A DNA stretch of 39,063 nucleotides. Source: Nitrospira sp. UW-LDO-01. GTDB taxonomy: Bacteria; Nitrospirota; Nitrospiria; Nitrospirales; Nitrospiraceae. Location of the stretch: positions 1-39,063 of the forward strand of contig NIUT01000158.1 in the NCBI GenBank assembly GCA_002254365.1, written 5' to 3'. Below are positions 23,339 to 39,063 of the stretch, piece by piece. Each line of letters opens with the position of its first letter. Position 1 is the first letter of the stretch. The translations under genes and the position numbers were made by a program. The notes below the pieces were generated by a model. It searched no databases and was not told the DNA's origin. It saw only the letters and a program-made list of their open reading frames with translations.

Positions 23339-25996
23339 ATGAACGGCCCCCTTCCTCTTGTCGATGTCCTGCGTCAACAAGTTGCTCATCTTGTGCGTGA
23401 ACAGGCCGAGCGAGACACGGTGTTGCATGAGCGAACTCGGCATCTTCGTGTGGCTCAGGCCCTCGCTCATCTGGGTAGTTGGGAGTGGGAAATCGAGAGC
23501 GGGGCTGTTCGGTGCTCGTCTGAGTTGTATCGGATCTTTGGCCGTGAATCTGGGGCAGAGCTGCTGACCTTTGATGGGTTTATCACGGCAGTGTTCTCAG
23601 AAGATCGTGATCGGATCCTGGCCTCTATCAATCAGGCCCTGGGTGGCCGAGCGTCGTATGATGTGGAATATCGGGTCGTGCGTCCAAACGGTGAGGTGCG
23701 GACCATTCATTCCTGCGCAGAGGTTTTGCGTGACGACAATGGAAAGCCCTGTCGCATGTCCGGGTCTGTTCTGGACATCACCGATCGGACACGCATAGCA
23801 GAAACATTGCGCTCCTCGCAGGACAAACTGAGGCAAGCGCTCCACGCATCGGGTATCGGACTGTGGGACTGGAACACGTATACCAACGAGATGGTCCTGT
23901 CAGAGGAATGGAAGCGTCAGCTTGGGTACGACCAGGCGGAGCTTTCAGACTCATTCGAGACGTGGGAAGGTCTGTTGCATCCGGATGATCATGATCGTGT
24001 CGTGGTTTGCTTGCAGGACGCTGTGTGTAAACGTCAGGACGAATATCGCCAGGAATACCGGCTCAGGCACAAAGATGGGACCTATCGATGGATTGAGTCT
24101 CGCGCCGCGTTGGTGACAGAAGCTGACGGTCGCCAGATCCGTTTCCTCGGTTCACATATGGACATTACGGATCGCAAACGCATGGAGCAAGCGGTCCGAG
24201 AGAGTGAAGACCGGTACCGAACGTTGGTCGACCTGTCCCCATCCGGAGTCTTTGTCTTCTGTGAAGGGCGGGCCGTCTACGTTAACCACAGAGGCGCTCT
24301 TCTCCTCGGGGCGAGCGATCCTCCGGAGCTTCTCGGTCGATCCATGTTCGAGTTTCTCCATCCAGACGACCACCACGATATCCATGAACATGCCCGTCGG
24401 GTGCTTGCTGGAAACGGGTCAGTCCATAGCGCGGAACGAACCTATCTCAGGAAAGATGGAACGTCGATTCCTGTTCAAATGGAGGCCGCCAGGATCGTCT
24501 GGAATGGTATCCCCGCCATCATCGTGCTGATCTCCGATGTCACTGAGCGCAAGCAGGCAGAAAAAGCCTTACGGGCGAGCGAGGAGCGGTTTGCTAAAGC
24601 GTTCAAGACCAGTCCCCATCCCATTCTCATCAGTGAGATTGAAACAGGCCGGTTGGTCGAGGTCAACGATGCGGCCAGCCACCTGTTATGTCATCACACG
24701 GAGGAACGGGAAAACCAGATTGTTTCAGAGCTCGAGGTTTTGGGCCCGGCTGAGGAGCAAGTCCGTTTTCGCGAGCGAATGAGAGAGGTTGGGCCGCTCC
24801 GCAACCTGGAGGTGAGTCTCCGGGCCAGCAACGGCGATATCCGCCGCTTCCTCCTGTCGTCGGAGGTCATCGAGTTGAATGGGAAGCCGTGCAGGGTGAC
24901 GGTTGGGGATGATGTCACTGATCGGAAACGAGCTGAAGACGAGTTGCGCCGATCACATGGTTTGTTGCGGCAGGTCATCGATGGCTCACCGAATTTTATC
25001 TTTGCCAAAGATAGGGAAGGGCGGTTTACCATGGCCAACAAAGCGGTTGCTGATTGTTATGGGACAACGGTGCACGATTTGATTGGACAGACGGACGCCG
25101 ATTTTAATCCCCATTGGGATGAGGTGGAGTTTTCCCGCGAGAAGGATCTCGAGGTCATGACGTCTCTGCAGGAATGCTTTGTTGCTGAGGAAAAGTTCAC
25201 GGATTGGTCTGGAGCAACGCGCTGGCTGCAAACCATCAAACGGCCGATTGTCGATGACCAGGGGTGTTTTCATATGGTGCTTGGATCGGCGACAGACATA
25301 ACGGAACGGAAGCGGATGGAAGAAACGCTGCTCCAGCACGAACGGGATCTGAATGCAGCGCTACAGGATCGAGAGCGGATCAGCCAGGACCTGCATGACG
25401 ATATTCTTCAATCAGTTTATGCCGCCGGGCTCGGGTTGGAAGCTTGTCGGTCGATGATGAAGCGGCAACCCGAGTTGACCACAGATCATTTCATGGCGAC
25501 CTTGGAACAGGCCATTGGGCAACTCAACCAGGTCATTGAGAAGATCCGTAATTTCATCTCAGGGCTTGAGGCTCGTGTCATACAAGGTGCGGATTTCATA
25601 GAGGACTTACGAACTATGGTACAGACGATGTGCAGGGCATCGTCCATTCAATGCCGGGTACGGATCGATGACAGGGTCGGGGAGTATTTCTCACCTGAAC
25701 CGGCGGTCCATCTCATCAACATTGTAAGAGAGGCATTGAGTAATGCCCTTCGTCATAGTCATGCCACACGTATTACCGTGTCGTTGCGTCAGTTCCTTGG
25801 ATCAGTCCGCCTGACGGTGACGGATAATGGCATCGGATTCAACCCAAAGTCGGTTCAGGGTGTTGGTCATGGTCTAGAAAATATGACGGCACGAGCGCAC
25901 AAAGCCGGCGGGGTGTTTGCCGTACGATCGGAACCTCACCGCGGGACCAGGGTTCTTCTTGATCTCCCCAAAGATTCCCCAGACTATTCCAATTAA
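23339..25996 (+). CDS. multi-PAS sensor histidine kinase (5 PAS + HisKA_3 + HATPase)
   Basis: Five PAS/PAC units each ending DITDRK/DVTERK; ERISQDLHDDILQSVYAAGLGLEA dimerisation/phosphoacceptor; IVREALSNALRHS...VTDNGIGFN...GHGLENMTARA ATPase boxes; upstream AAGGAG. Confidence 0.93.
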   Translation: MNGPLPLVDVLRQQVAHLVREQAERDTVLHERTRHLRVAQALAHLGSWEWEIESGAVRCSSELYRIFGRESGAELLTFDGFITAVFSEDRDRILASINQALGGRASYDVEYRVVRPNGEVRTIHSCAEVLRDDNGKPCRMSGSVLDITDRTRIAETLRSSQDKLRQALHASGIGLWDWNTYTNEMVLSEEWKRQLGYDQAELSDSFETWEGLLHPDDHDRVVVCLQDAVCKRQDEYRQEYRLRHKDGTYRWIESRAALVTEADGRQIRFLGSHMDITDRKRMEQAVRESEDRYRTLVDLSPSGVFVFCEGRAVYVNHRGALLLGASDPPELLGRSMFEFLHPDDHHDIHEHARRVLAGNGSVHSAERTYLRKDGTSIPVQMEAARIVWNGIPAIIVLISDVTERKQAEKALRASEERFAKAFKTSPHPILISEIETGRLVEVNDAASHLLCHHTEERENQIVSELEVLGPAEEQVRFRERMREVGPLRNLEVSLRASNGDIRRFLLSSEVIELNGKPCRVTVGDDVTDRKRAEDELRRSHGLLRQVIDGSPNFIFAKDREGRFTMANKAVADCYGTTVHDLIGQTDADFNPHWDEVEFSREKDLEVMTSLQECFVAEEKFTDWSGATRWLQTIKRPIVDDQGCFHMVLGSATDITERKRMEETLLQHERDLNAALQDRERISQDLHDDILQSVYAAGLGLEACRSMMKRQPELTTDHFMATLEQAIGQLNQVIEKIRNFISGLEARVIQGADFIEDLRTMVQTMCRASSIQCRVRIDDRVGEYFSPEPAVHLINIVREALSNALRHSHATRITVSLRQFLGSVRLTVTDNGIGFNPKSVQGVGHGLENMTARAHKAGGVFAVRSEPHRGTRVLLDLPKDSPDYSN

Positions 25997-26305: not shown

Positions 26306-29300
26306 ATGAATTCGACCAGTCACCTGGCTGAATTGGATTTGCTGCGCAGGCAGGTCGCCGATCTTTCACGGGAATTAACGGAGCGGGATCAGGCCTTACA
26401 GGAGTTCTCGCGACAGCGAGACGACGAATTACAGGATTTGCGCGAACGTTCGGACATGTTGCGCGCGATCGTTGCCGGGACGGCTGCGGAGACCGGGGAA
26501 GACTTCTTCTCAACTCTCGTGTGCCATCTCAGCTTAGTACTGGGCGTCCAGTATGCTGTTGTTGGGGAGATCCAACACCATCCGGTGAAGAAAATCCGTA
26601 CCCTCGCCGTCTCAGCCAACGGCAATCTTGTCGACAACTTCGAATACCCACTGATGAATACTCCGTGTGAAACCGCGCTGGGTCAGTCCTTTGCCTGTTT
26701 CGAGCGAGATGTCAGGGCGGTGTTCCCACTCTTTGGGCATCTGGCTCAGCTGGGTGTCGAAGGATATTGTGGAGTCCCGCTCAGGGCAAAAGGCGGAGCG
26801 GCCATGGGACTCCTCGTCCTGATGGATACCAAGCCTCTCCGCAATAGCGATCGACTACGATCGCTGATGGCGGTTTTTGCCTCGCGGGCAGCGGCGGAGC
26901 TCCAACGGCGGCACTCCGAAACAATAGTCCAACAACAGCAGCGGCAGTTGCTGGAAGCCCAAGCACGTGCGCACCTGGGGAGCTGGGACTGGTATTTCGA
27001 CAGCGGCATTGTGCGCTGGTCGGAAGAACAATTTCGGATCTTCGGCTATGAACCCGGCCACATGGCTGTCAGCTATGACACCTTTGTGGCCGCTCTGCAC
27101 CCGCTGGATTGTTCGCGGGTGCAGAGCGTAATCGACGCTGTGCTGAAGGGCGGCACAACCTACGACATCGAATGTCGCATCATCCGTCCTGATCGTACGA
27201 TTCGTGCGATCCATTGCCGAGGCGAAGTCTGTCGAGATGTCGACGGTCGTCCTGTTTCTCTGTCGAGCAGTGTGTTGGATATCACCGACCGTCAGTGTGT
27301 TGAGGAGGAACTACGGCTTTCTCAGGAGCGACTCCAACAAGCTCTTCGGGCATCAGGCACGGGGCTATGGAATTGGAACACCGAAACGAATGCGGTGGTT
27401 TTTTCCGAGGAGTGGAAACGGCAGTTAGGCTATAGCGGGAGAGAGCTTGTCGATGCATTTGAGACATGGACAACCTTTCTGCATCCAGACGATCGTGAGG
27501 GTGCCATCGCATATGCCAGGCAATATCAAGCTGCGCCCGATGGCGACTATCGACAGGAGTTTCGTCTGCGGCACAAAGACGGCACCTATCGATGGATTGA
27601 GGCGCGGGCCTCATTCGTAGCAGAACCTGATGGCCGGCGGATCCGTCTCCTTGGATCCCATACCGATATTACCGATCGTAAATTGATGGAGGAGTCGATA
27701 CGGGAGAGTGAAGAACGATACCGGACATTGGTTGAGCTCTCTCCATCCGGTGTTTTTGTCTTCTGTGAAGGACGAGCGGTCTATGTCAATCGAACCGGCA
27801 CCATCTTAATGGGGGCGCGAGAGACTCAGGAGATTCTTGACCGACCGACCTTTGACTTCATCCATCCAGACTATCATCAAGAGGTCCGTGAGAATGTGAA
27901 ACGGCTGCTGAGCGGTGGCGTGTCAGTCCATAGTGCGGAGCGAGTCTATGTGCGGTTGGATGGCACGACGATCCCCGTTCAAGTCGAAGCCGGACGGATC
28001 ACTTGGGACGGCAAGCCGGCCATCCTCGGCATATTCTCGGATATTACCGAGCGGAAACAGGCAGAAGATGCTCTGGCCAATCTGAATGCGACGTTGGAAC
28101 GCCAGGTGAGCGATCGAACGGAGGCGCTGCGCCGGAGTGAAGAACGGTTCAGGCAATTTTTTGACCATGCCCCGAATGTAAAGGCTTTGAAGGATCACAA
28201 CGGCCGCTATTTGTATACCAATCGGCGGTTCGATGAGGTGTTCGGGCTTGCACCCGGTGCGGCCTTGGGACGGACAGATGAGGAGCTATTCTCTCAGGAG
28301 CAGGCCGCACAGTTTCGAGCGAATGATAGAAAAGTTTTGGCCAGCGGCCGTGGACAGGAATTCGAGGAGGTGACGCAGCAGCGGGATGGGCTTCGTGTCA
28401 GTATCGTCGTGAAATTCCCGGTGGCCGATGCCGCTGGTCATCTCTCGGCCATCGGCGTCATCGCTACTGATGTGACCGAGCGCAATCGTACGCAAGAGGC
28501 GTTGAGGGAGAGTGAGGATCGGTGGCAGCAGTTCGCGGAGTCGGTTAGGTCGGCATTCTGGATTGCGGACGTGGGACAGGACGAACGGCAGGTGCTGTAC
28601 GTCAACTCAGCGTTTACCTTTATCTGGGGCATTGAGCGCGAGGAAATCTATCAAAATTGGTCGCTGTGGATTGAATCAATCCATCCGGATGATCGTATGC
28701 GGGTGAAGACCAGCCATGATCGATTTGTCAGTGGTGGGATGACGGCGGTGTTCCATTGTGAGTACCGGATCGTGGGACGGGATGGCCATATCCGCTGGAT
28801 TTCCGATCGACGCGTCCGAATGGCTGGGAGAGAGAATCGCATTGCGGGGATCGCAGAAGATATCACCCACCATAAGCAGCAGTTGGCGTTGATGGCTCAA
28901 ACAGAGGCGATCGGAAAAATCGGGGGATGGCAGTTCGATTTTCTCACAGACCGGCTGTGGTGGAGCGATGAGACGTACCACCTCCATGAAACGACGCCGG
29001 AGATATTCAACCCGACGGTGGAAGCGTCGTTGAATTTTTATACACCCGAAAGCCGTCCGATTATGGCCGAAGCGTGGCTGAATGGGGTGACACAGGGACA
29101 GCCTTGGGATCTCGAGTTGGAGCTACTCACAGGGCAAGGCCGTCGGATTGCGGTGCGTGCAGCCGGCCAGGTCGATGTTCTGGACGGACGAGCAGTTCGG
29201 GCGTACGGAACATTCCAAGATATTACAGAGCGTAAACTGGCGGAGGAAGCGCTCCAGCGGGCACATGATGAACTCGAGCGCAAGGTACTCGAACGTACGG

Positions 29301-31852
29301 CCCAATTGCAGGCCAGCGAGGAACGATATGCGCGTGCCACAGCCGTCGGCAAAGTGGGGGTATGGGAATTGGATGTTCTCAAGGGACTCTACCATGGTGA
29401 CGCCAATCTCAAGATGCTGTTCGGCTATGGGCCGGAAGAACTGTCAACCGATCCCTTTAGTTGGCTGAAGCTTGTTCATCCGGACGATCAGTCGGTTGCC
29501 ATGAAGAGTTGGGGACAGGTGCAGAGCGGAGCCATCGACGAATGCCACTATGAGCTTCGAGTGGTCAGAAGGGACGGAGCCATTATTTGGACTGATGTAC
29601 GTGGACACGGCGTTCGCGATTCCAAGGGACAACTGACACATTTGATCGGGGCCACTGTCGATATCACGGAGCGGAAGCAAGCGGAGCAAGCATTGCGCGA
29701 GAGCGAGGAACGATTCTCCAAAGCCTTCCGCACGAGCCCTCATCCAATCGGGATTACGGAGGTCGTAACGGGTCGTTGCGTCGAAGTGAACGATGCTTGT
29801 CTGGAGGCATTCGGTTTTCGTCGGGAGGAAGTGATCGGAAACACCACCTTTCTGCTAGGTATCTGGCCAAAGCTCGAAGATAGGGCACGAGTCATCGAGC
29901 GGTTGAAAGCCGGAGAACCGATGCGCAACATGGAGTTTGCTTTAAAGACCAAATCGGGTGGGTTCCGCCATTTTCTGGCTTCCGCTGATCTCGCCGAACT
30001 CAACGGGGTGCTCTGTGTGGTGACGGTCGCGAACGACATCACGGACCGCAAGCAAGCCGAGGAAGCACTGCGCATCAGCGAGGAACGGTTTGCGAAGGCG
30101 TTCCAAGCCAGCCCCCATCCGGTTGTTATCAGCGAGCTGGACTCTGGTCTGATCGTAGAGGCGAATGAGGCTGCATGGCAGCTCTTCGGATATCATAAAG
30201 AAGAATCTATGGGACATACGACGTTTGAAATAGGTCTCTGGCATTCCGTGGAAGAACGGGCACGGTACTTCGGGTTATTGAAGCAACAGGGATCCATCCG
30301 CAATATGGAAGTGCAACTGCGGAGTAAAAGCGGTGATATCCGGCACTGTCTCTTGTCGTCGGAACTGATCGAGTTGAACGGCAAGCAATGCGGCGTGACG
30401 GTCGGCGATGATATTACGGAGAGTAGACGCTTGGAAAAAGCGCTGCGGTTGACGCAATTCTCTGTGGATCAGGCCGTTGAGGCGATCATCTGGTTGGATC
30501 CGAACGCTCGAGTGTTCAATGTGAATGATACGGCATGCCGAATGCTGGAGTATTCACGAGGGGAACTGTTGGGCATGACGGTCCACGACATTGACCCAAA
30601 TTTCCCCGTGGAGCAATGGATCGATCACTGGAACTACTTGAAGGAACGGGGATCGTTGACATTCGAAGCAAGGTTTTGGTCACGAACCGGAGCCGTCTTG
30701 GAGACGGACGTGAGCGTCAATTATTTGCTCCATGAAGGGAATGAGTACGCCTGCATGATCGTGCGGGATATTGGAGACCGCAAGCGGGCGGAAGCTGACC
30801 TTCGCCGCTCCCATATGTTTCTTCGACAGGTCATTGACACCGATCCAAACTTCATCTTTGCCAAGGACCGTGACGGACGTTTTACGATGGCGAACAAAGC
30901 GGTTGCCGATTGTTACGGCACCACGGTGGAAGAGTTGGTTGGCAAATCGGATGCGGATTTCAACCCTGACTCAGTAGAGGTCGCATTCTTTCGTCAAAGG
31001 GATCTTGAAGTGATGGATTTCATAGAAGAATGCTTTATTCCTGAGGAACGGATCACAGATGCAGAGGGGAGGACACGCTGGTTACAGACGGTGAAACGCC
31101 CGATTCTCGACGAGGACGGAATACCTCACATGGTGTTGGGTGCGGCGACCGACATCACGGAACGCAAGCGGATGGAAGAGATGCTGATCCAACGTGAGCG
31201 AGATCTGAGCGCGGCGATTCAAGAACGAGAACGCATCAGCCAGGATCTTCATGATGGGATTCTCCAATCCTTATATGCGGTGGGGCTCGGATTAGAGGGG
31301 TGTAAACCACTCATTCGGAAACAGCCTGGGCCTCTCACGAGAAAGTTCATGAAGACCCTCGATCAGAGTATTGGGCAACTCAATCAAGTGATGGGAGAGG
31401 TTCGGAATTTCATCGCCGGCCTCGAGTCGCATGTGATACAGGGAGGCGACTTTCCAACGGCACTCCGGAATTTGGTTGAAACGATGTCCAGTTCGGCGTC
31501 AATCAAATGCCGGGCGAGGATCAATGAGGCGTCCGCACGGCAGCTTTCTACCGAGCAGGCGCTGCATATCATCAACATCGTACGAGAAGGGGTCAGCAAC
31601 GCGTTGCGGCACAGCGGTGCGACACGCATCACGGTGTCACTCCAAGATCTCACGCGGTCGGTTCGTCTGACCATCACTGACAATGGGATCGGGTTCAACA
31701 CCAGTTCGGTTCAAGGAGTTGGTCATGGACTGACCAATATGGCGGCACGGGCTCAAAAAGTCCGCGGGGTGTTCCTGCTTCGATCAACGCCTTGCCATGG
31801 GACGAAGATCTCTCTCGATTTGCCAAAGGAGACAACCTATGCTCACAACTAA
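26306..31852 (+). CDS. giant sensor histidine kinase (GAF + ~11 PAS + HisKA_3 + HATPase)
   Basis: 1848 aa; N-terminal GAF-like segment; eleven PAS/PAC units counted by DIT[DE]RK-type ends; ERISQDLHDGILQSLYAVGLGLEG; IVREGVSNALRHS...ITDNGIGFN...GHGLTNMAARA. Confidence 0.93.
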   Translation: MNSTSHLAELDLLRRQVADLSRELTERDQALQEFSRQRDDELQDLRERSDMLRAIVAGTAAETGEDFFSTLVCHLSLVLGVQYAVVGEIQHHPVKKIRTLAVSANGNLVDNFEYPLMNTPCETALGQSFACFERDVRAVFPLFGHLAQLGVEGYCGVPLRAKGGAAMGLLVLMDTKPLRNSDRLRSLMAVFASRAAAELQRRHSETIVQQQQRQLLEAQARAHLGSWDWYFDSGIVRWSEEQFRIFGYEPGHMAVSYDTFVAALHPLDCSRVQSVIDAVLKGGTTYDIECRIIRPDRTIRAIHCRGEVCRDVDGRPVSLSSSVLDITDRQCVEEELRLSQERLQQALRASGTGLWNWNTETNAVVFSEEWKRQLGYSGRELVDAFETWTTFLHPDDREGAIAYARQYQAAPDGDYRQEFRLRHKDGTYRWIEARASFVAEPDGRRIRLLGSHTDITDRKLMEESIRESEERYRTLVELSPSGVFVFCEGRAVYVNRTGTILMGARETQEILDRPTFDFIHPDYHQEVRENVKRLLSGGVSVHSAERVYVRLDGTTIPVQVEAGRITWDGKPAILGIFSDITERKQAEDALANLNATLERQVSDRTEALRRSEERFRQFFDHAPNVKALKDHNGRYLYTNRRFDEVFGLAPGAALGRTDEELFSQEQAAQFRANDRKVLASGRGQEFEEVTQQRDGLRVSIVVKFPVADAAGHLSAIGVIATDVTERNRTQEALRESEDRWQQFAESVRSAFWIADVGQDERQVLYVNSAFTFIWGIEREEIYQNWSLWIESIHPDDRMRVKTSHDRFVSGGMTAVFHCEYRIVGRDGHIRWISDRRVRMAGRENRIAGIAEDITHHKQQLALMAQTEAIGKIGGWQFDFLTDRLWWSDETYHLHETTPEIFNPTVEASLNFYTPESRPIMAEAWLNGVTQGQPWDLELELLTGQGRRIAVRAAGQVDVLDGRAVRAYGTFQDITERKLAEEALQRAHDELERKVLERTAQLQASEERYARATAVGKVGVWELDVLKGLYHGDANLKMLFGYGPEELSTDPFSWLKLVHPDDQSVAMKSWGQVQSGAIDECHYELRVVRRDGAIIWTDVRGHGVRDSKGQLTHLIGATVDITERKQAEQALRESEERFSKAFRTSPHPIGITEVVTGRCVEVNDACLEAFGFRREEVIGNTTFLLGIWPKLEDRARVIERLKAGEPMRNMEFALKTKSGGFRHFLASADLAELNGVLCVVTVANDITDRKQAEEALRISEERFAKAFQASPHPVVISELDSGLIVEANEAAWQLFGYHKEESMGHTTFEIGLWHSVEERARYFGLLKQQGSIRNMEVQLRSKSGDIRHCLLSSELIELNGKQCGVTVGDDITESRRLEKALRLTQFSVDQAVEAIIWLDPNARVFNVNDTACRMLEYSRGELLGMTVHDIDPNFPVEQWIDHWNYLKERGSLTFEARFWSRTGAVLETDVSVNYLLHEGNEYACMIVRDIGDRKRAEADLRRSHMFLRQVIDTDPNFIFAKDRDGRFTMANKAVADCYGTTVEELVGKSDADFNPDSVEVAFFRQRDLEVMDFIEECFIPEERITDAEGRTRWLQTVKRPILDEDGIPHMVLGAATDITERKRMEEMLIQRERDLSAAIQERERISQDLHDGILQSLYAVGLGLEGCKPLIRKQPGPLTRKFMKTLDQSIGQLNQVMGEVRNFIAGLESHVIQGGDFPTALRNLVETMSSSASIKCRARINEASARQLSTEQALHIINIVREGVSNALRHSGATRITVSLQDLTRSVRLTITDNGIGFNTSSVQGVGHGLTNMAARAQKVRGVFLLRSTPCHGTKISLDLPKETTYAHN

Positions 31853-32501
31853 ATCTCCCACTCAAGTCATTCGGGTGTTGCTCGTCGATGATCATGAAGT
31901 GATCCGTGTGGGGCTCCGGACCGTACTGAGTCAGAATCAAAGCGTCAGTGTCATCGGGGAAGCCGGTACCGTGGGCGATGCAATTCTGCAGTCCCAGAAG
32001 CTGAAACCCGACATCATTTTGATGGATGTCCGCCTTCCCGATGGGTCCGGGGTCGATGCCTGTCGCGAGATTCTTGGGACGCTCCCGAACACCCGAGTTA
32101 TTTTCCTGACGTCGTACGCTGACGATGATTCTGTGCTGGCAGCCGTCCTCGCTGGCGCACAGGGCTACGTGCTCAAGGAGATCGATTCAAACGCCTTGTT
32201 GGAGGCCATCCGTTCGGTTGCAAGGGGTCAATCCATTCTGGATTCGATGGTCACCGAGCGGGCGCTACGATGGCTGAGAGGGCTGCACGACCTCCCGGCT
32301 ACGCCGGGCACGGATCAACTGTCATCTCAGGAGGAACGAGTGGTGGCTCTGGTCGCCGAAGGTAAGACCAATAAGGAAATTGCCGTTGCCCTCGGACTCA
32401 GCGACAAAACAGTGAAGAATTACTTGGCGAACGTATTTCAAAAACTTCGTATCACGCGGCGTGCGCAGGCCGCAGCTTTTTTTGTGAAACGACAAGGATA
32501 G
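31839..32501 (+). CDS. NarL/DevR-type (LuxR HTH) response regulator
   Basis: VIRVLLVDDHEVIRVGLRTVL...DIILMDVRLPDGSG...FLTSYADDD...GYVLKEI; C-terminal LSSQEERVVALVAEGKTNKEIAVALGLSDKTVKNYLANVFQKL. ATG 31839 lies inside the end of kinase 2. Confidence 0.95.
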   Translation: MLTTKSPTQVIRVLLVDDHEVIRVGLRTVLSQNQSVSVIGEAGTVGDAILQSQKLKPDIILMDVRLPDGSGVDACREILGTLPNTRVIFLTSYADDDSVLAAVLAGAQGYVLKEIDSNALLEAIRSVARGQSILDSMVTERALRWLRGLHDLPATPGTDQLSSQEERVVALVAEGKTNKEIAVALGLSDKTVKNYLANVFQKLRITRRAQAAAFFVKRQG

Positions 32502-32773
32502 GCTCATCACATTCGGCTCTAGTCAGGGTAGAGACAAAATTTATCTGCCGCAAGCCCATCGTGCTTTGGTGTTCCTCGTTCAATTCCTGTAGGATTCACC
32601 CGCTGTATTCGGATTCATAACTAAATAGAGCGACGAGGATCCACTGCATCTTGGGGAAGGAGTCTCGACGCTGTTGCTTGTTGTGGTCCTGAGTTCTTGC
32701 CGAGTGTGCGGACGACAATGGCGGGTTGCGAGACACCGTTGTGTTGTCCTGGCCTACCGGGAGGTTGCCCCTC

Positions 32774-35077
32774 ATGGCAGCTGGTCTTTTTCTAGGAATG
32801 CTGCTTCTGCTGAGTCTCTCTCTCTGGCGTGTCCTTCGACTTCAGCGTGAGAACCTCCTGAAGGCCCAGGTCATTGAGGCGACGAAGTGTGGTGTCCTGG
32901 TGACCGATGCCACGCTCCCACATCATCCGATTCGCCAGGTGAATGGCGCCTTTCTCGCCCTGACCGGCTACGCAGAGCATGAAGTCCTGGGTCAAACCAG
33001 CACGATTCTGAGTGGCCCCGATACCGATCGTGCATCCATGGAAACGCTCGGGTTGGCCCTTCAGGATGGGTGGGCTTGTCGGGTCTCTGTTCGCCATTAT
33101 CGAAAGGACGGCACATCGTTTTGGAATGAGGTGATGCTTTCTCCGATTAAAGACCGGGTTGGCCGAGCGACCACCGTCATTTGGATCATGCGCGATATCT
33201 CAGATGTTCGAGCGTTGGAAGCCGATCGTCGTGGGAGACCGTCGCCTACGTTGCTGTGCGAGTCCGTCTCAGAAGGAATGTTGGTGACGACGGACGAAGA
33301 GGTTGTGTACGTGAACATGGCAGGGTTGAGGATCCTCGGAGCGAGTTCGGAAGGTCAAGTTATCGGCCGTGGATTCTTGGACTTGATTCATCGGGATTTC
33401 CAAGAGACGGTTCGGGAACACCTTATCCGAACATCATCGCCTGAATCAGAGTGTCAATGGGAGACCAGAGTCCTTCATCGAGATGGACGTACCGTTGCGG
33501 TCGAGATGTCGGCAACGCCAATTGTGTGGGAGGGACAGGAATCGCTTCTGATCTGTTTCTCGGACCGGTTACATGCGGATCGAAGGGGAAACGACGTCTC
33601 CCAGGGCCTCCATGATCTTCGCCGTTCAGAGTCCATTACAGATATGAACAATTGGGCCTGGGACGTCGCGCACGGTACGGAACTGTGGTCTGCCGAACAA
33701 TACCGAATTCTGGGATACGAGCCTGGGTCAGTGCCGCCAACCTATGACACTTTCAAGAAAGCGCTTCACCCGGGGGATCGTGATCGCGTTCTCGCCTTGT
33801 TCGAAGAGACGTTTACCTCCGACCGCCCATACGATATCGACTGTCGGATCATTCAACCCTCCGGTGTGGTACGGTTTGTCCGGTGCCGGGGCGTTCTGAT
33901 GCGTGGGCTCCCAGATCAGCCGATCCGGATGTCGGGCACCATCGATGACATTACCGACTACAAACTCATGGCGACGTTGGCGGAGGAACGAGTTCTTCAG
34001 CTCAAGGTTGTGTTGGATGCCTCGACCACGGGGATGGTTCTAGTCAGCCGGGAAGGTACGATCTCTCTTGCCAACGGGAAGATTGAACAGATGTTTGGGT
34101 ATGTGTACGGGGAACTGGTCGGCCGTCCTGTTGACTCTCTATTCCAGACTGCTGATCGTGCACAGTATGCTCGTGAATCCCGAGATGTCTTGTCAGCTTC
34201 GAGGGAGTGTCTTTCAAGAACCGGTGTGGAACTCTCTAGTTTGAGAAAAGATGGTTCGGGATTCCTTTCCGAGATCGGTTTGTACCCGATTGCTCTCTCT
34301 TCAGGGTCGTCGCTCCTGGTCTCTATTGTGGACATCACGGCTTCCCGTCAAGCTGATCGAACGTTTCGGGATGATCAGATGCGGTTGGATCTTGCCGTGC
34401 AGGCCGGGCAGGTTGGGATCTTTGAATATGATTACCAAGGGGGTACTGTCTGGTGGTCTCCGATCCTACGGACCATCCATGGCATCGGGATGGAGGAACC
34501 GGCTTCCCTGGAGAGGTATCTGCAGCTGGTCCATCCTTCAGATCGAGAGATGACGAACGTGATGGCCCGATCTGTCAAAACTCCCCATGATGAGGATCGG
34601 ATCTTTGAAGTGACCTATCGAATTATTCGGCCGGATGGAGCCACTCGCACGATCAGTCTCTGTTACCAGACCTGGTTTGACCGAGAACATGCACCAGCTC
34701 GACCACGTCAGACCGTCGGAATGCTTGTCGATATCACGGATCGGAAGGCTTTTCTGACTCGCACGCCCCCTCTCTCCACGATGGAACCACCTCGGACTAT
34801 CTCTCGTAGTGTCTTTCATGAGTTCAACAACAGTCTTACCGCTGTACTTGGTTTCAGCGAGCTGGCCCTTTCGCTGATTCCTACCGACAGCAAGGCCCAT
34901 CGTCATCTTCAGCAAGTCATTGCAGCCGGTAGAAACGCTCGGGAGCTGGCTCAAACCATTCGCCGCGCGTCGGATCACGCCGCTTGCTCTCCGGAATCCA
35001 TTCTGCCCCCACAGCCCGGGTCGGATCCATCGGCGTCACAGACTGAGGTGCCGGATGTTGTCGGTCCTCATCGTTGA
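32774..35077 (+). CDS. membrane-anchored multi-PAS protein with DHp-like motif and no HATPase domain
   Basis: N-terminal TM (MAAGLFLGMLLLLSLSLWRVL), five PAS units, terminal FHEFNNSLTAVLGFSELALSLI DHp-like segment, then an ~30-aa Pro/Ser tail and stop. ATG 32774; ORF is open from TTG 32726. Confidence 0.85.
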   Translation: MAAGLFLGMLLLLSLSLWRVLRLQRENLLKAQVIEATKCGVLVTDATLPHHPIRQVNGAFLALTGYAEHEVLGQTSTILSGPDTDRASMETLGLALQDGWACRVSVRHYRKDGTSFWNEVMLSPIKDRVGRATTVIWIMRDISDVRALEADRRGRPSPTLLCESVSEGMLVTTDEEVVYVNMAGLRILGASSEGQVIGRGFLDLIHRDFQETVREHLIRTSSPESECQWETRVLHRDGRTVAVEMSATPIVWEGQESLLICFSDRLHADRRGNDVSQGLHDLRRSESITDMNNWAWDVAHGTELWSAEQYRILGYEPGSVPPTYDTFKKALHPGDRDRVLALFEETFTSDRPYDIDCRIIQPSGVVRFVRCRGVLMRGLPDQPIRMSGTIDDITDYKLMATLAEERVLQLKVVLDASTTGMVLVSREGTISLANGKIEQMFGYVYGELVGRPVDSLFQTADRAQYARESRDVLSASRECLSRTGVELSSLRKDGSGFLSEIGLYPIALSSGSSLLVSIVDITASRQADRTFRDDQMRLDLAVQAGQVGIFEYDYQGGTVWWSPILRTIHGIGMEEPASLERYLQLVHPSDREMTNVMARSVKTPHDEDRIFEVTYRIIRPDGATRTISLCYQTWFDREHAPARPRQTVGMLVDITDRKAFLTRTPPLSTMEPPRTISRSVFHEFNNSLTAVLGFSELALSLIPTDSKAHRHLQQVIAAGRNARELAQTIRRASDHAACSPESILPPQPGSDPSASQTEVPDVVGPHR

Positions 35078-35426
35078 CGATCAAGACCAAATCCGTCAGC
35101 TGATCCGTGACACCTTGGAGAGGGCGGGGTACCATGTCGAAGAGGCGCGTGACGGAAAGGAGGGGCTTCAACGTTATCGCGAAAACTCCGTCGACCTTGT
35201 CCTCATGGATATTCTTATGCCGGATCAGGACGGATTGGAGGCCATCATGGCGCTTCGGCGTGAGTTTCCAGATTCTCGGATCATTGCCATGACCGGAGGG
35301 ATTGATGGAGTCGGCGTCCCTAATTTTCTGGACGTGGCAACCATGCTAGGTGCAAGGCTGACACTTCAAAAGCCATTTGAGCTCCAGACTCTCCTCGATG
35401 CGGTCGCTGCCGAGGTGATGAGCTAA
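35055..35426 (+). CDS. single-domain CheY-like response regulator
   Basis: MLSVLIVDDQDQIRQLIRDTLERAGYHVEEARDGKEGLQRYRENSVDLVLMDILMPDQDGLEAI...IIAMTGG...LQKPFE; overlaps the upstream gene by 23 nt. Confidence 0.92.
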   Translation: MLSVLIVDDQDQIRQLIRDTLERAGYHVEEARDGKEGLQRYRENSVDLVLMDILMPDQDGLEAIMALRREFPDSRIIAMTGGIDGVGVPNFLDVATMLGARLTLQKPFELQTLLDAVAAEVMS

Positions 35427-35940: not shown

Positions 35941-38202
35941 TTATCCACTCTCTACCGGGTCCATATCGATAACGAATTTGATCTGCTTCTGTCGGTATTG
36001 TCTTTCCATGCTCTCAACCGAATCCCGGAGCCGACGTGCGAGGAGGTCGGGATCAGCTCCCTTCACCAGGAGCCGGCGGTGATGCTGCCCTCGAAGCCGT
36101 TTTCCCAGCGTCGGGACAGGTCCTAGAACGACAAGATGTTCTTCGACAGAGGTCTGTCGTTGAAGGTTGGCGCCCCAGCGGGTAGCGGCCTCTTCGACGA
36201 GGACCGTATTGTGCCCAGTGACGGTAAGATCGGCTATGTGGCACACTGGTGGATAATTGAGAAGTCGGCGTGCGATGAGTTCCTCATTGTAGAACTGATG
36301 AGGATTCCAAGATATGAGAGCTTGGACGGCGTGGTGGGAAGGGAGGCGAGTCTGCACGATGACTTGCCCTCCAGCGGATGCCGGGTACGCCACGCTTGCC
36401 GCATCAACAAGGAGGTGGTACGTCCGCTCCGCAGCTCGAAAATCCGAGACATGTAATCCGGAATCGGCTTGAAGAATTCCCACCACATGGTGCTGTGGAA
36501 GGGGCTCATGAGTGAAGAGTGCTTGCGTCCCTATCAGAATATCGCATGATCCGGATCTCGCACGTTCCCACAGTGAGCGCGCGGTGGATGGGCGGCGGAG
36601 TGTGTCACTGTCGAGGCGCACAATCGTGGCATGAGGAAACAAATGATGAGCTTCAGCCTCGACCCGTTCAGTACCTTCACCGACGGGACTGACCGGGGTG
36701 GCATGGCATAGGGGACATGCATCAGGCAACTGTTCCGCAACTCCGCAGTACCGACAGGTAAGGCTTCCGGCTTCTCGGTAGTAAGGGAGTGCGACGGTGC
36801 AGGAGGGACAGCGCGGTACCCAGCCACAGTCTCGACAGATCAGCGTTCTGGCGTATCCTCTCCTATTAAGGAAGAGCAAGATCCTTCTTTTGCACTTGAG
36901 GGCATCGCGTATCGCGGAGCGCAGGCTATGGCTCAGGAGAGTTCCTCTCGACTCCTTGGTGAGATCAACCAGCTCAATCTTTGGCTGCAGGGCTATGTCC
37001 TTCTGAACCCGATGAACTTCCGCTTCGGTATCGAAATTCGATTCCAGGGATAGGTGTTCCGATGCGAGAACCACCACTGCATGATCCTCCTTTGCCCGTA
37101 GACTGGCCACCTCCCTGGCATGATATCGAGGCTCTTTGGGTTCTTTGAGGGCTGAGTCCTCTTCTCCTTCGACCCAGATGAGTCCGACGGAATCGAGCTG
37201 TGCAAAGATAACTGAACGGGTTCCCACGAGGACTGATGGAGTCGGGCCTTGACGATGATCCAATCGTTGAGGCGAGTGGGGCAGCTGGGCAAAGTCAATC
37301 TGAAGTCCGGTGAGTGGTGCGAGCACTTGTGTCAACCAGCGTGCTTTTGCCGTCTCACCGCATACCACAATTATCGATCTGTTGTGTGAACGCACTTGGC
37401 GAATGGCCTCTGCAAGTCTTCCTATCCGTTGTTGCCATGGAGCCTGGAGAACGATTTTCTTCATGTGGTCCGCCTGTAGGCACTGGTGGAGATGAGCACG
37501 CCAGGCGGGGTCTATCCCGTAGGGTTGACTTGTATCGACTACAGCGTGAGGCAGGGTTTGTTGTTGCTCTGGCTCAGTGAGGGGGATCCGCTGTCGCTTG
37601 CGAGTCTGGATATGCTCTGTGTTCGACAGTACACGATTGATCCACGAGCGCTCAATGAGGGAATCGACCGCTTGCAAGGCATGGCCATGTTGGGCTGGTT
37701 GGAGTGTGGATGACAAGATCCCAGAGGCTCGGTGAGCGATTCGCTGTAGCGTTGGTCGAAGGGATTCTGGGCAGGTACCTGTTTCCAGTGCTGTGCGGCC
37801 TAGCTGAGTGGCGATATAGCGTGTGGGTGAGATGAGTGATGGAGGGCGGAGTAATCGAAGGCATTGGCCCCAGGGAGCCACATAGTATTGTGCAACTTTG
37901 TGAGAGAGTTCGAACAGGGTGGGAGAGATCGTCGTATTGTGCCGATCTTCAACCAGCGAAAGAATCGTTTTTAGGGAGGCAGACGTCATCTCGGATGCGA
38001 GTTGGGAACTGATGGAAATCACGACTCCCTCTAGGACGGATCGGCCGAATGGTACCTTGACGAGACTGCCGATTTGAATACGTTGAGTGATGGAGAGTGG
38101 AATAAGATAGGTGAACGCCTTCGTGATGTGCCGTGGAACGAGGACATCCGCAAACCGAGGCGCTGTTTGCGGCTGTGAGGCCGAAGTGCTCTGGAGAGCC
38201 AT
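35941..38202 (-). CDS. priA: PriA (primosomal protein N') homolog with degenerate helicase motifs
   Basis: N-terminal ADVLVPRHITKAFTYLIP...GSLVKVPFGRSVLEGVV; FLNRRGYARTLICRDCGWVPRCPSC...CRYCG...CPLC zinc region; VLGPVPTLGKRLRGQHHRRLLVKG and FVIDMDPVESG C-terminus. Confidence 0.9.
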   Translation of the reverse strand: MALQSTSASQPQTAPRFADVLVPRHITKAFTYLIPLSITQRIQIGSLVKVPFGRSVLEGVVISISSQLASEMTSASLKTILSLVEDRHNTTISPTLFELSHKVAQYYVAPWGQCLRLLRPPSLISPTRYIATQLGRTALETGTCPESLRPTLQRIAHRASGILSSTLQPAQHGHALQAVDSLIERSWINRVLSNTEHIQTRKRQRIPLTEPEQQQTLPHAVVDTSQPYGIDPAWRAHLHQCLQADHMKKIVLQAPWQQRIGRLAEAIRQVRSHNRSIIVVCGETAKARWLTQVLAPLTGLQIDFAQLPHSPQRLDHRQGPTPSVLVGTRSVIFAQLDSVGLIWVEGEEDSALKEPKEPRYHAREVASLRAKEDHAVVVLASEHLSLESNFDTEAEVHRVQKDIALQPKIELVDLTKESRGTLLSHSLRSAIRDALKCKRRILLFLNRRGYARTLICRDCGWVPRCPSCTVALPYYREAGSLTCRYCGVAEQLPDACPLCHATPVSPVGEGTERVEAEAHHLFPHATIVRLDSDTLRRPSTARSLWERARSGSCDILIGTQALFTHEPLPQHHVVGILQADSGLHVSDFRAAERTYHLLVDAASVAYPASAGGQVIVQTRLPSHHAVQALISWNPHQFYNEELIARRLLNYPPVCHIADLTVTGHNTVLVEEAATRWGANLQRQTSVEEHLVVLGPVPTLGKRLRGQHHRRLLVKGADPDLLARRLRDSVESMERQYRQKQIKFVIDMDPVESG

Positions 38203-38328: not shown

Positions 38329-39063
38329 CTATTCCGTCGGAGTCCCACCTGCTGCTGGTTGTTGCTGAGACGTGTCTGGTCTATTCGGCTCCATCGGCGT
38401 GGAAGGACTGCCGGTATCGGGAGTACCAGCACGACTGCCAGATCCAGTCTGGGAAGTCCGCGACGAATCGTCCACAGACACAGTTCCTGGGGTAACAGGG
38501 TTCTCAGCATCCGAAGCAGGCGTAGAGGGGTTCTGTTGATCGAGATTTCCACGCGCATTCAAATTGGGAGCATTGGTGCTCAACGTGTGCGTGTGAGTCG
38601 GCTCCTCCGAAGCGTCGGCTTCGGCGAGATATAGCACGACCTCCACACGACGATTCTTTTTGCGGTCCTCTTCCATCTCATTCGACGCGGTTGGCTTGCT
38701 GTCCCCAAGTGCCACGGCTGTGATCCTGGCTGAGTCAATACCGCCTTTCTCGACAAGATAGCGAAGAACACCGTTTGCACGGACCTTGGACAGTTCCCAA
38801 TTGCTCGGATAACGAGCCTTGAGGGAGGGACCGATTTCGACGTTATCGGTATGACCTTCAATTCGAATCAATCGGGTATCGCCGCTGGTTCGCAAATATT
38901 CAATGAACTGATCGAGCACGGCATAATTCTCAGGCTTGATTGCGGCATCTCCTGATTCATAGCGCAAGAACTTGGCTAGTTCGCCCAGATTGAGACGACT
39001 TTGTCCGGAGGCATCATGTACTGTCAGCTTGCTGGTGACCAGATCGGTAGTTGGTCTAACAGG
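38329..39063 (-). CDS. OmpA/MotB-family peptidoglycan-binding domain protein, partial (5' end outside window)
   Basis: IRIEGHTDNVEIGPSLKARYPSNWELSKVRANGVLRYLVEKGGIDSARITAVALGDSKPTASNEMEEDRKKNRRVEVVL; frame remains open to the right edge (PVRPTTDLVTSKLTVHDASGQSRLNLGELAKF...). Confidence 0.92.
   Translation of the reverse strand, partial: PVRPTTDLVTSKLTVHDASGQSRLNLGELAKFLRYESGDAAIKPENYAVLDQFIEYLRTSGDTRLIRIEGHTDNVEIGPSLKARYPSNWELSKVRANGVLRYLVEKGGIDSARITAVALGDSKPTASNEMEEDRKKNRRVEVVLYLAEADASEEPTHTHTLSTNAPNLNARGNLDQQNPSTPASDAENPVTPGTVSVDDSSRTSQTGSGSRAGTPDTGSPSTPMEPNRPDTSQQQPAAGGTPTE

Follow-up and report, generated by a model that had tools for sequence, protein, structure and literature searches.

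The window analysed here, a 39,063-nucleotide stretch of contig NIUT01000158.1 of Nitrospira sp. UW-LDO-01 (assembly GCA_002254365.1), contains a priA gene at positions 35941..38202 of the minus strand, which encodes 753 amino acids followed by a stop codon and was assigned from its open reading frame, profile matches and an alignment to Escherichia coli PriA. Upstream of priA, and likewise on the minus strand, an OmpA-family gene (38329-39063) runs off the window. Also in the window are two large multi-PAS histidine kinases of 885 and 1848 amino acids (23339-25996 and 26306-32501), the larger of which overlaps a LuxR-type response regulator, and a 783-amino-acid multi-PAS protein (32726-35426) in which no kinase domain was detected and which is overlapped by a response regulator ORF.

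The priA frame starts with ATG, has zero internal stops over its 753 codons and matches TIGR00595 at 343.7 bits (curated cut-off, 230.35), in line with the intact PriA ORF reported by the first-pass annotation. The TIGR00595 alignment begins only at profile position 17, past motif I. PriA_3primeBD (PF17764), Zn_ribbon_PriA (PF18319) and PriA_C (PF18074) were all found above cut-off, and no Pfam helicase-domain family was detected in the protein, even at E≤1. The protein thus retains the 3′ DNA-binding domain (residues 19-119; 37846..38148, minus strand; PF17764, 1.2e-19), the Cys-rich region with all eight cysteines (residues 456-499; 36706..36837, minus strand; PF18319) and the C-terminal domain (residues 652-749; 35956..36249, minus strand; PF18074, 1e-12), which keeps its D.DP terminus. 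The flanking landmarks named previously, GTRS, RYHARE, FLNRRGYA, the Cys clusters, FRAAER and DMDPVE, are all present. Actinobacterial PriA (the NCBIfam PRK14873 group) likewise lacks helicase motifs. The window PriA is not of that lineage, since it scores far better on PRK05580 models (416.7 bits on the PriA model NF004066) than on PRK14873 models (182.9 bits at best).

Aligned to E. coli PriA, the window protein was found to be eroded in helicase motifs I, II, III, V and VI, as originally claimed; the earlier assignments of these motifs held, and their coordinates required correction by up to about 12 nt. All remnants lie on the minus strand. At motif I (Walker A; LQAPWQQRIGR, residues 252-262, 37417..37449), the E. 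coli sequence GVTGSGKT is replaced by A-PWQQRI, which falls one residue short of a canonical P-loop, and the catalytic lysine K230 of E. coli aligns to R259. At motif II (VEGEEDSALKE, residues 344-354, 37141..37173), DEEH is replaced by EGEE, and at motif III (LASEHLSLE, residues 379-387, 37042..37068), SATP is replaced by SEHL. Motif V, GTQMLAKGHHFP in E. coli, reads GTQALFTHEPLP (residues 558-569, 36496..36531), in which GTQ is retained and AKGHH is gone (AKGHHFP to FTHEPLP). Motif VI survives as VDAASVAYPASAG (residues 599-611, 36370..36408), with DAASVAYP in place of QVAGRAGR and neither arginine retained. A pattern search of the whole ORF returned neither GxxGxGK[T/S] nor QxxGRxGR, so that no intact copy of either motif lies elsewhere in the frame. 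Matching replacements recur in every genus orthologue read, which argues that the motif loss is not due to chance.

The host genome is 3.9 Mb in 230 contigs, and a profile search of it found no second PriA, intact or otherwise; the gene is present in a single copy, and nothing else therefore fills the PriA role. The three other matches to the PriA model correspond in frame length to Mfd (1157 aa), RecG (872 aa) and UvrB (677 aa), the RecG identity being confirmed by a separate RecG search and that of UvrB being based on length alone.

Both selection and predicted structure indicate a maintained protein. The dN/dS ratio (Nei-Gojobori) of the window PriA versus its relatives is 0.21-0.25, and ratios of 0.18-0.39 were obtained within genera carrying the dead protein versus 0.11-0.17 within intact genera. 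Selection on the dead PriA is purifying and somewhat relaxed, roughly half as strict as on intact relatives, with a dN/dS about twice theirs and far below 1, unlike the relaxation expected of a pseudogene. Along the protein, constraint is strongest in the second lobe, together with the Cys-rich region (dN/dS 0.12-0.20), and weakest in the winged-helix/linker part (0.27-0.42). An AlphaFold2 model (pLDDT 79, pTM 0.78) retains the PriA fold: its best PDB match is 8fak, E. coli PriA on a fork (E 2.9e-46, TM 0.82 by target length), and each of the nine best matches is a PriA. In the model, the first strand (residues 248-253) enters the first helix (residues 256-272) with almost no loop at the expected P-loop site. 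The low dN/dS and the kept domains support the proposal, made with the initial reading, of a retained structural role for a helicase-dead PriA. Local pseudogene decay or assembly error, for which the 230-contig assembly leaves some room, is exceedingly improbable given the open frame, a dN/dS of about 0.2 and the recurrence of the same state in 117 distinct sequences, including those from the single-contig genomes G012 and G023.

These 117 distinct PriA sequences come from four families of the order Nitrospirales, and they extend the helicase-dead state, which was correctly recognised at first in this genome, to a trait of the whole order. Within the genus, 57 of 60 genomes carry PriA, and across the order 56 of 59 have a PriA match that exceeds the family cut-off. 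The genomes in which it was not found are G007, G018 and G036 in the genus and G277, G283 and G304 in the order, most of them at least 90% complete. Each of the 22 sampled genera of the window's family has the degenerate protein, as do three further Nitrospirales families. Not one of the 117 sequences has the Walker A pattern GxxGxGK[T/S] or the motif VI pattern QxxGRxGR, and DEEH is kept in only four, every one from family f28. All eight cysteines are conserved throughout (117/117 by alignment column count). No close relative has intact motifs; the nearest intact proteins are outside the order, where most of the phylum, including families of the same class, retains every motif. The intact comparison set comprises 36 orthologues, 3 from three same-class families outside the order and 33 from intact families of the phylum, and all 36 carry Walker A, DEEH and motif VI. 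Because the one-residue P-loop gap is common to 117/117 order sequences, the motif loss is ancestral to the order.

Could ATPase activity persist at a non-canonical site composed of the replacement motifs APWxxR and EGEED? These motifs are themselves conserved in the genus, K230 is replaced by arginine in 102/117 order sequences, and the third DEEH residue (E322 in E. coli) is the sole near-invariant of the four, being found in 116/117. Such a site is hard to reconcile with a P-loop shortened by one residue and with the absence, from almost every sequence, of the Walker B Asp/Glu and of the two arginines of motif VI; in addition, K230R alone abolishes the ATPase activity of E. coli PriA (PMC4504706). 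A surviving ATPase is accordingly very unlikely, and the conservation of the E322 equivalent suggests a structural role for this residue. Order PriA proteins are instead presumed to have no ATPase activity, on the strength of the motif loss and of the Deinococcus radiodurans precedent described below.

A second motif-dead clade was found in the phylum, covering ten families, in which all three motifs are lacking in every sequence (0/17). It consists of families f9, f15, f17 and f19-f25 (L145, L148, L150-L157, L171, L172, L174-L178); in several of these families the erosion of PriA exceeds that in the order, but both the tip of SSB and the pocket that receives it on PriA are intact. In PriA trees computed with the helicase motif columns removed, the order sequences are monophyletic (support 100/100, and 100/99 once families f27 and f28 were added), and the second dead group forms a separate clade (100/100) adjoining the intact families f16 and f26. 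A single motif loss in the phylum, followed by reacquisition of intact copies through transfer elsewhere, is consistent with an AU test on the PriA tree, where joining the dead sequences in one clade is not rejected (p 0.286), so that the gene tree alone does not force two losses. This history is nevertheless improbable, as the two dead clades stand apart in both trees with strong support for each, and the motifs are intact in three families that belong to the window's class but not to its order. The manner of decay also differs: the order combines the P-loop deletion (117/117) with K to R (102/117), whereas the second clade shows the gap in only 1/17 and K to E in 13/17. The second clade, moreover, keeps the SSB tip and its pocket. 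From the intact families in the window's class, the differing decay and the SSB data, two losses are favoured, and the motif loss of the second clade is probably independent of that of the order. The earlier suggestion of an independent loss is thus borne out by taxonomy with respect to Deinococcus-Thermus and Actinobacteria, both separate from Nitrospirales, but is not secured within the phylum, where the AU test leaves a single loss unrejected.

The degeneration also reaches the site at which PriA docks on SSB. On Klebsiella pneumoniae PriA, the SSB-tip pocket is formed by W82, Y86, K370, R697 and Q701 (PMC5531588), which correspond, at one number higher, to W83, Y87, K371, R698 and Q702 of E. 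coli PriA. In the window PriA, the N-terminal side of the pocket (residues 102-106; 37885..37899, minus strand) has K102 in place of W83 and keeps Y87 as Y106, and K371 is replaced by V396 (37015-37017, minus strand) in the E. coli alignment, so that the W83/Y87/K371 triad reads K/Y/V. The other two positions are P718 (R698) and A722 (Q702); they vary in all groups and are uninformative. With conservative substitutions allowed, the complete triad is present in only 5/117 order PriA sequences, four of the five from f28, and in 51/53 sequences elsewhere (16/17 in the second dead clade and 35/36 among intact sequences).

The partner surface is lost as well. SSB lacks the terminal PF in 60/60 distinct Nitrospirales genomes and ends in PF in the other phylum genomes (49/49), among them those of the three same-class families and of the second dead clade. 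SSB is encoded by a single copy in 57/59 order genomes; the extra copies in G296 and a weak match in G095 are also without PF, and the tip is likewise absent from the single-contig genomes G012 and G023. Many order SSB tails bear an acidic stretch with a conserved tyrosine instead of PF, as exemplified by the tail of the window genome, HDEPGYETGDEG (SSB locus G000:C12:2707-3054; L187, L318). The SSB tip is highly conserved and docks about 20 proteins in E. coli (PMC10164576), and a search covering part of the literature found no published report of its loss in Nitrospira. Taken at the level of residues, these data point to a loss of PriA docking on the SSB tip in the order, and the tip loss lends support to the earlier idea of an unusual restart pathway. 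RecG was considered as a second SSB-tip partner, and was set aside because its pocket arginines (R467, R474 and R614 in E. coli) are not conserved phylum-wide.

Family f28 offers an intermediate state. It branches first in the order, with moderate support for the grouping of the rest (93/48). Its PriA proteins (L209-L212) have lost Walker A and motif VI and keep DEEH and the full pocket triad, and its SSB has already lost the tip. Most simply, this pattern would mean that loss of the motor and of the SSB tip came first and that Walker B and the pocket drifted later. As the genome counts represent one shared event, the coincidence of both losses is not by itself proof of a causal link. There is perhaps an even chance that Nitrospirales dismantled the SSB C-terminal-tip hub, with restart and other SSB-dependent repair proceeding without tip docking or via a replacement tip, for which the acidic, tyrosine-bearing tails would be candidates. 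In such a course of events, the amphipathic tip of the single SSB would have disappeared, on or close to the basal branch of the order, along with the ATP motor of PriA, and the PriA pocket and DEEH would have decayed later.

What does a PriA without a motor do? It is likely that the order protein serves as an ATP-independent fork-recognition scaffold for loading of DnaB with DciA, without docking on the SSB tip. Fork recognition would proceed via the 3′ DNA-binding domain, the Cys-rich region, the second helicase lobe and the C-terminal domain, and PriA would help the DciA loader to position DnaB on the single-stranded DNA of the lagging strand, with neither ATP hydrolysis nor unwinding. A double-stranded lagging-strand arm would have to be cleared by another enzyme, for which RecG and a UvrD-type helicase are candidates; both are present in the window genome, as are DnaB and DciA. 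Active PriA has been proposed to push SSB along the lagging strand (PMC4129139), and the lost SSB docking would fit a PriA that no longer does so. In E. coli, the ATPase of PriA is dispensable for PriA-PriB restart in vivo (PMC10175261). Fork binding and cooperation with DciA are what we infer for the order protein; the partnership is suggested by co-occurrence, which is not discriminating because DciA is universal in the phylum (118/118 genomes). A PriA repurposed outside replication restart, its architecture merely inherited, would agree with the lost SSB-pocket residues and with a dN/dS above that of intact PriA; we give this alternative little weight in view of the retained eight cysteines, 3′ DNA-binding domain and C-terminal domain with its D.DP terminus, the occurrence of PriA above cut-off in nearly all order genomes and the lack of a second PriA in the window genome.

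The pseudohelicase type of PriA is known already from Deinococcus, and the Nitrospirales form is a variant of it. PriA helicase motifs are well conserved, with Deinococcus-Thermus as a notable exception, and D. radiodurans PriA shows no ATPase or unwinding activity, yet binds forks and DnaB (Lopper 2015, PMC4504706). As in the window PriA, its Walker A and B motifs are decayed, the catalytic lysine is an arginine and the other domains are kept. The window PriA differs in being also degenerate in motifs III, V and VI, with a P-loop one residue short, and in representing a trait of an order in a different phylum in which the SSB tip is lost too. D. radiodurans PriA has been tested at the bench, whereas the window PriA is known from its sequence and a predicted model. 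With the E. coli and K. pneumoniae proteins (8fak, 4nl4, 4nl8), the window PriA shares the domain order, the Cys-rich region, the C-terminal domain and the predicted fold, but is without catalytic motifs and has an eroded SSB-tip pocket. The pocket residues are not conserved in Staphylococcus aureus PriA either; that protein, however, is an active helicase, and S. aureus SsbA retains a DDDLPF tip (PMC5531588). Two further dead clades in one phylum, together with a graded intermediate family, amount to a natural experiment on the need for the PriA motor. The linked loss of the SSB tip raises the interest beyond that of another pseudohelicase and is the less expected of the two findings: it raises the directly testable question of how free-living bacteria of a whole order cope in its absence.

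Two candidate correlates of the dead PriA were rejected: the presence of DciA, for its universality in the phylum, and the loss of RecG, which seems absent in f21 and most of f22 of the second dead clade but also in the intact G177. RecG is present in the order. The genomes in which it seems absent are G210, G229, G240, G264 and G274 (f21), G236, G248 and G272 (f22) and G177 (f16), all with a completeness of 99-100% and with a best RecG-model match at the level of Mfd only. Among the PriA matches, G078:C88:595-2052 and G047:C77:595-2052 have identical coordinates and scores in genomes of different genera; as G078 has its own PriA besides, contig G078:C88 looks like contamination.
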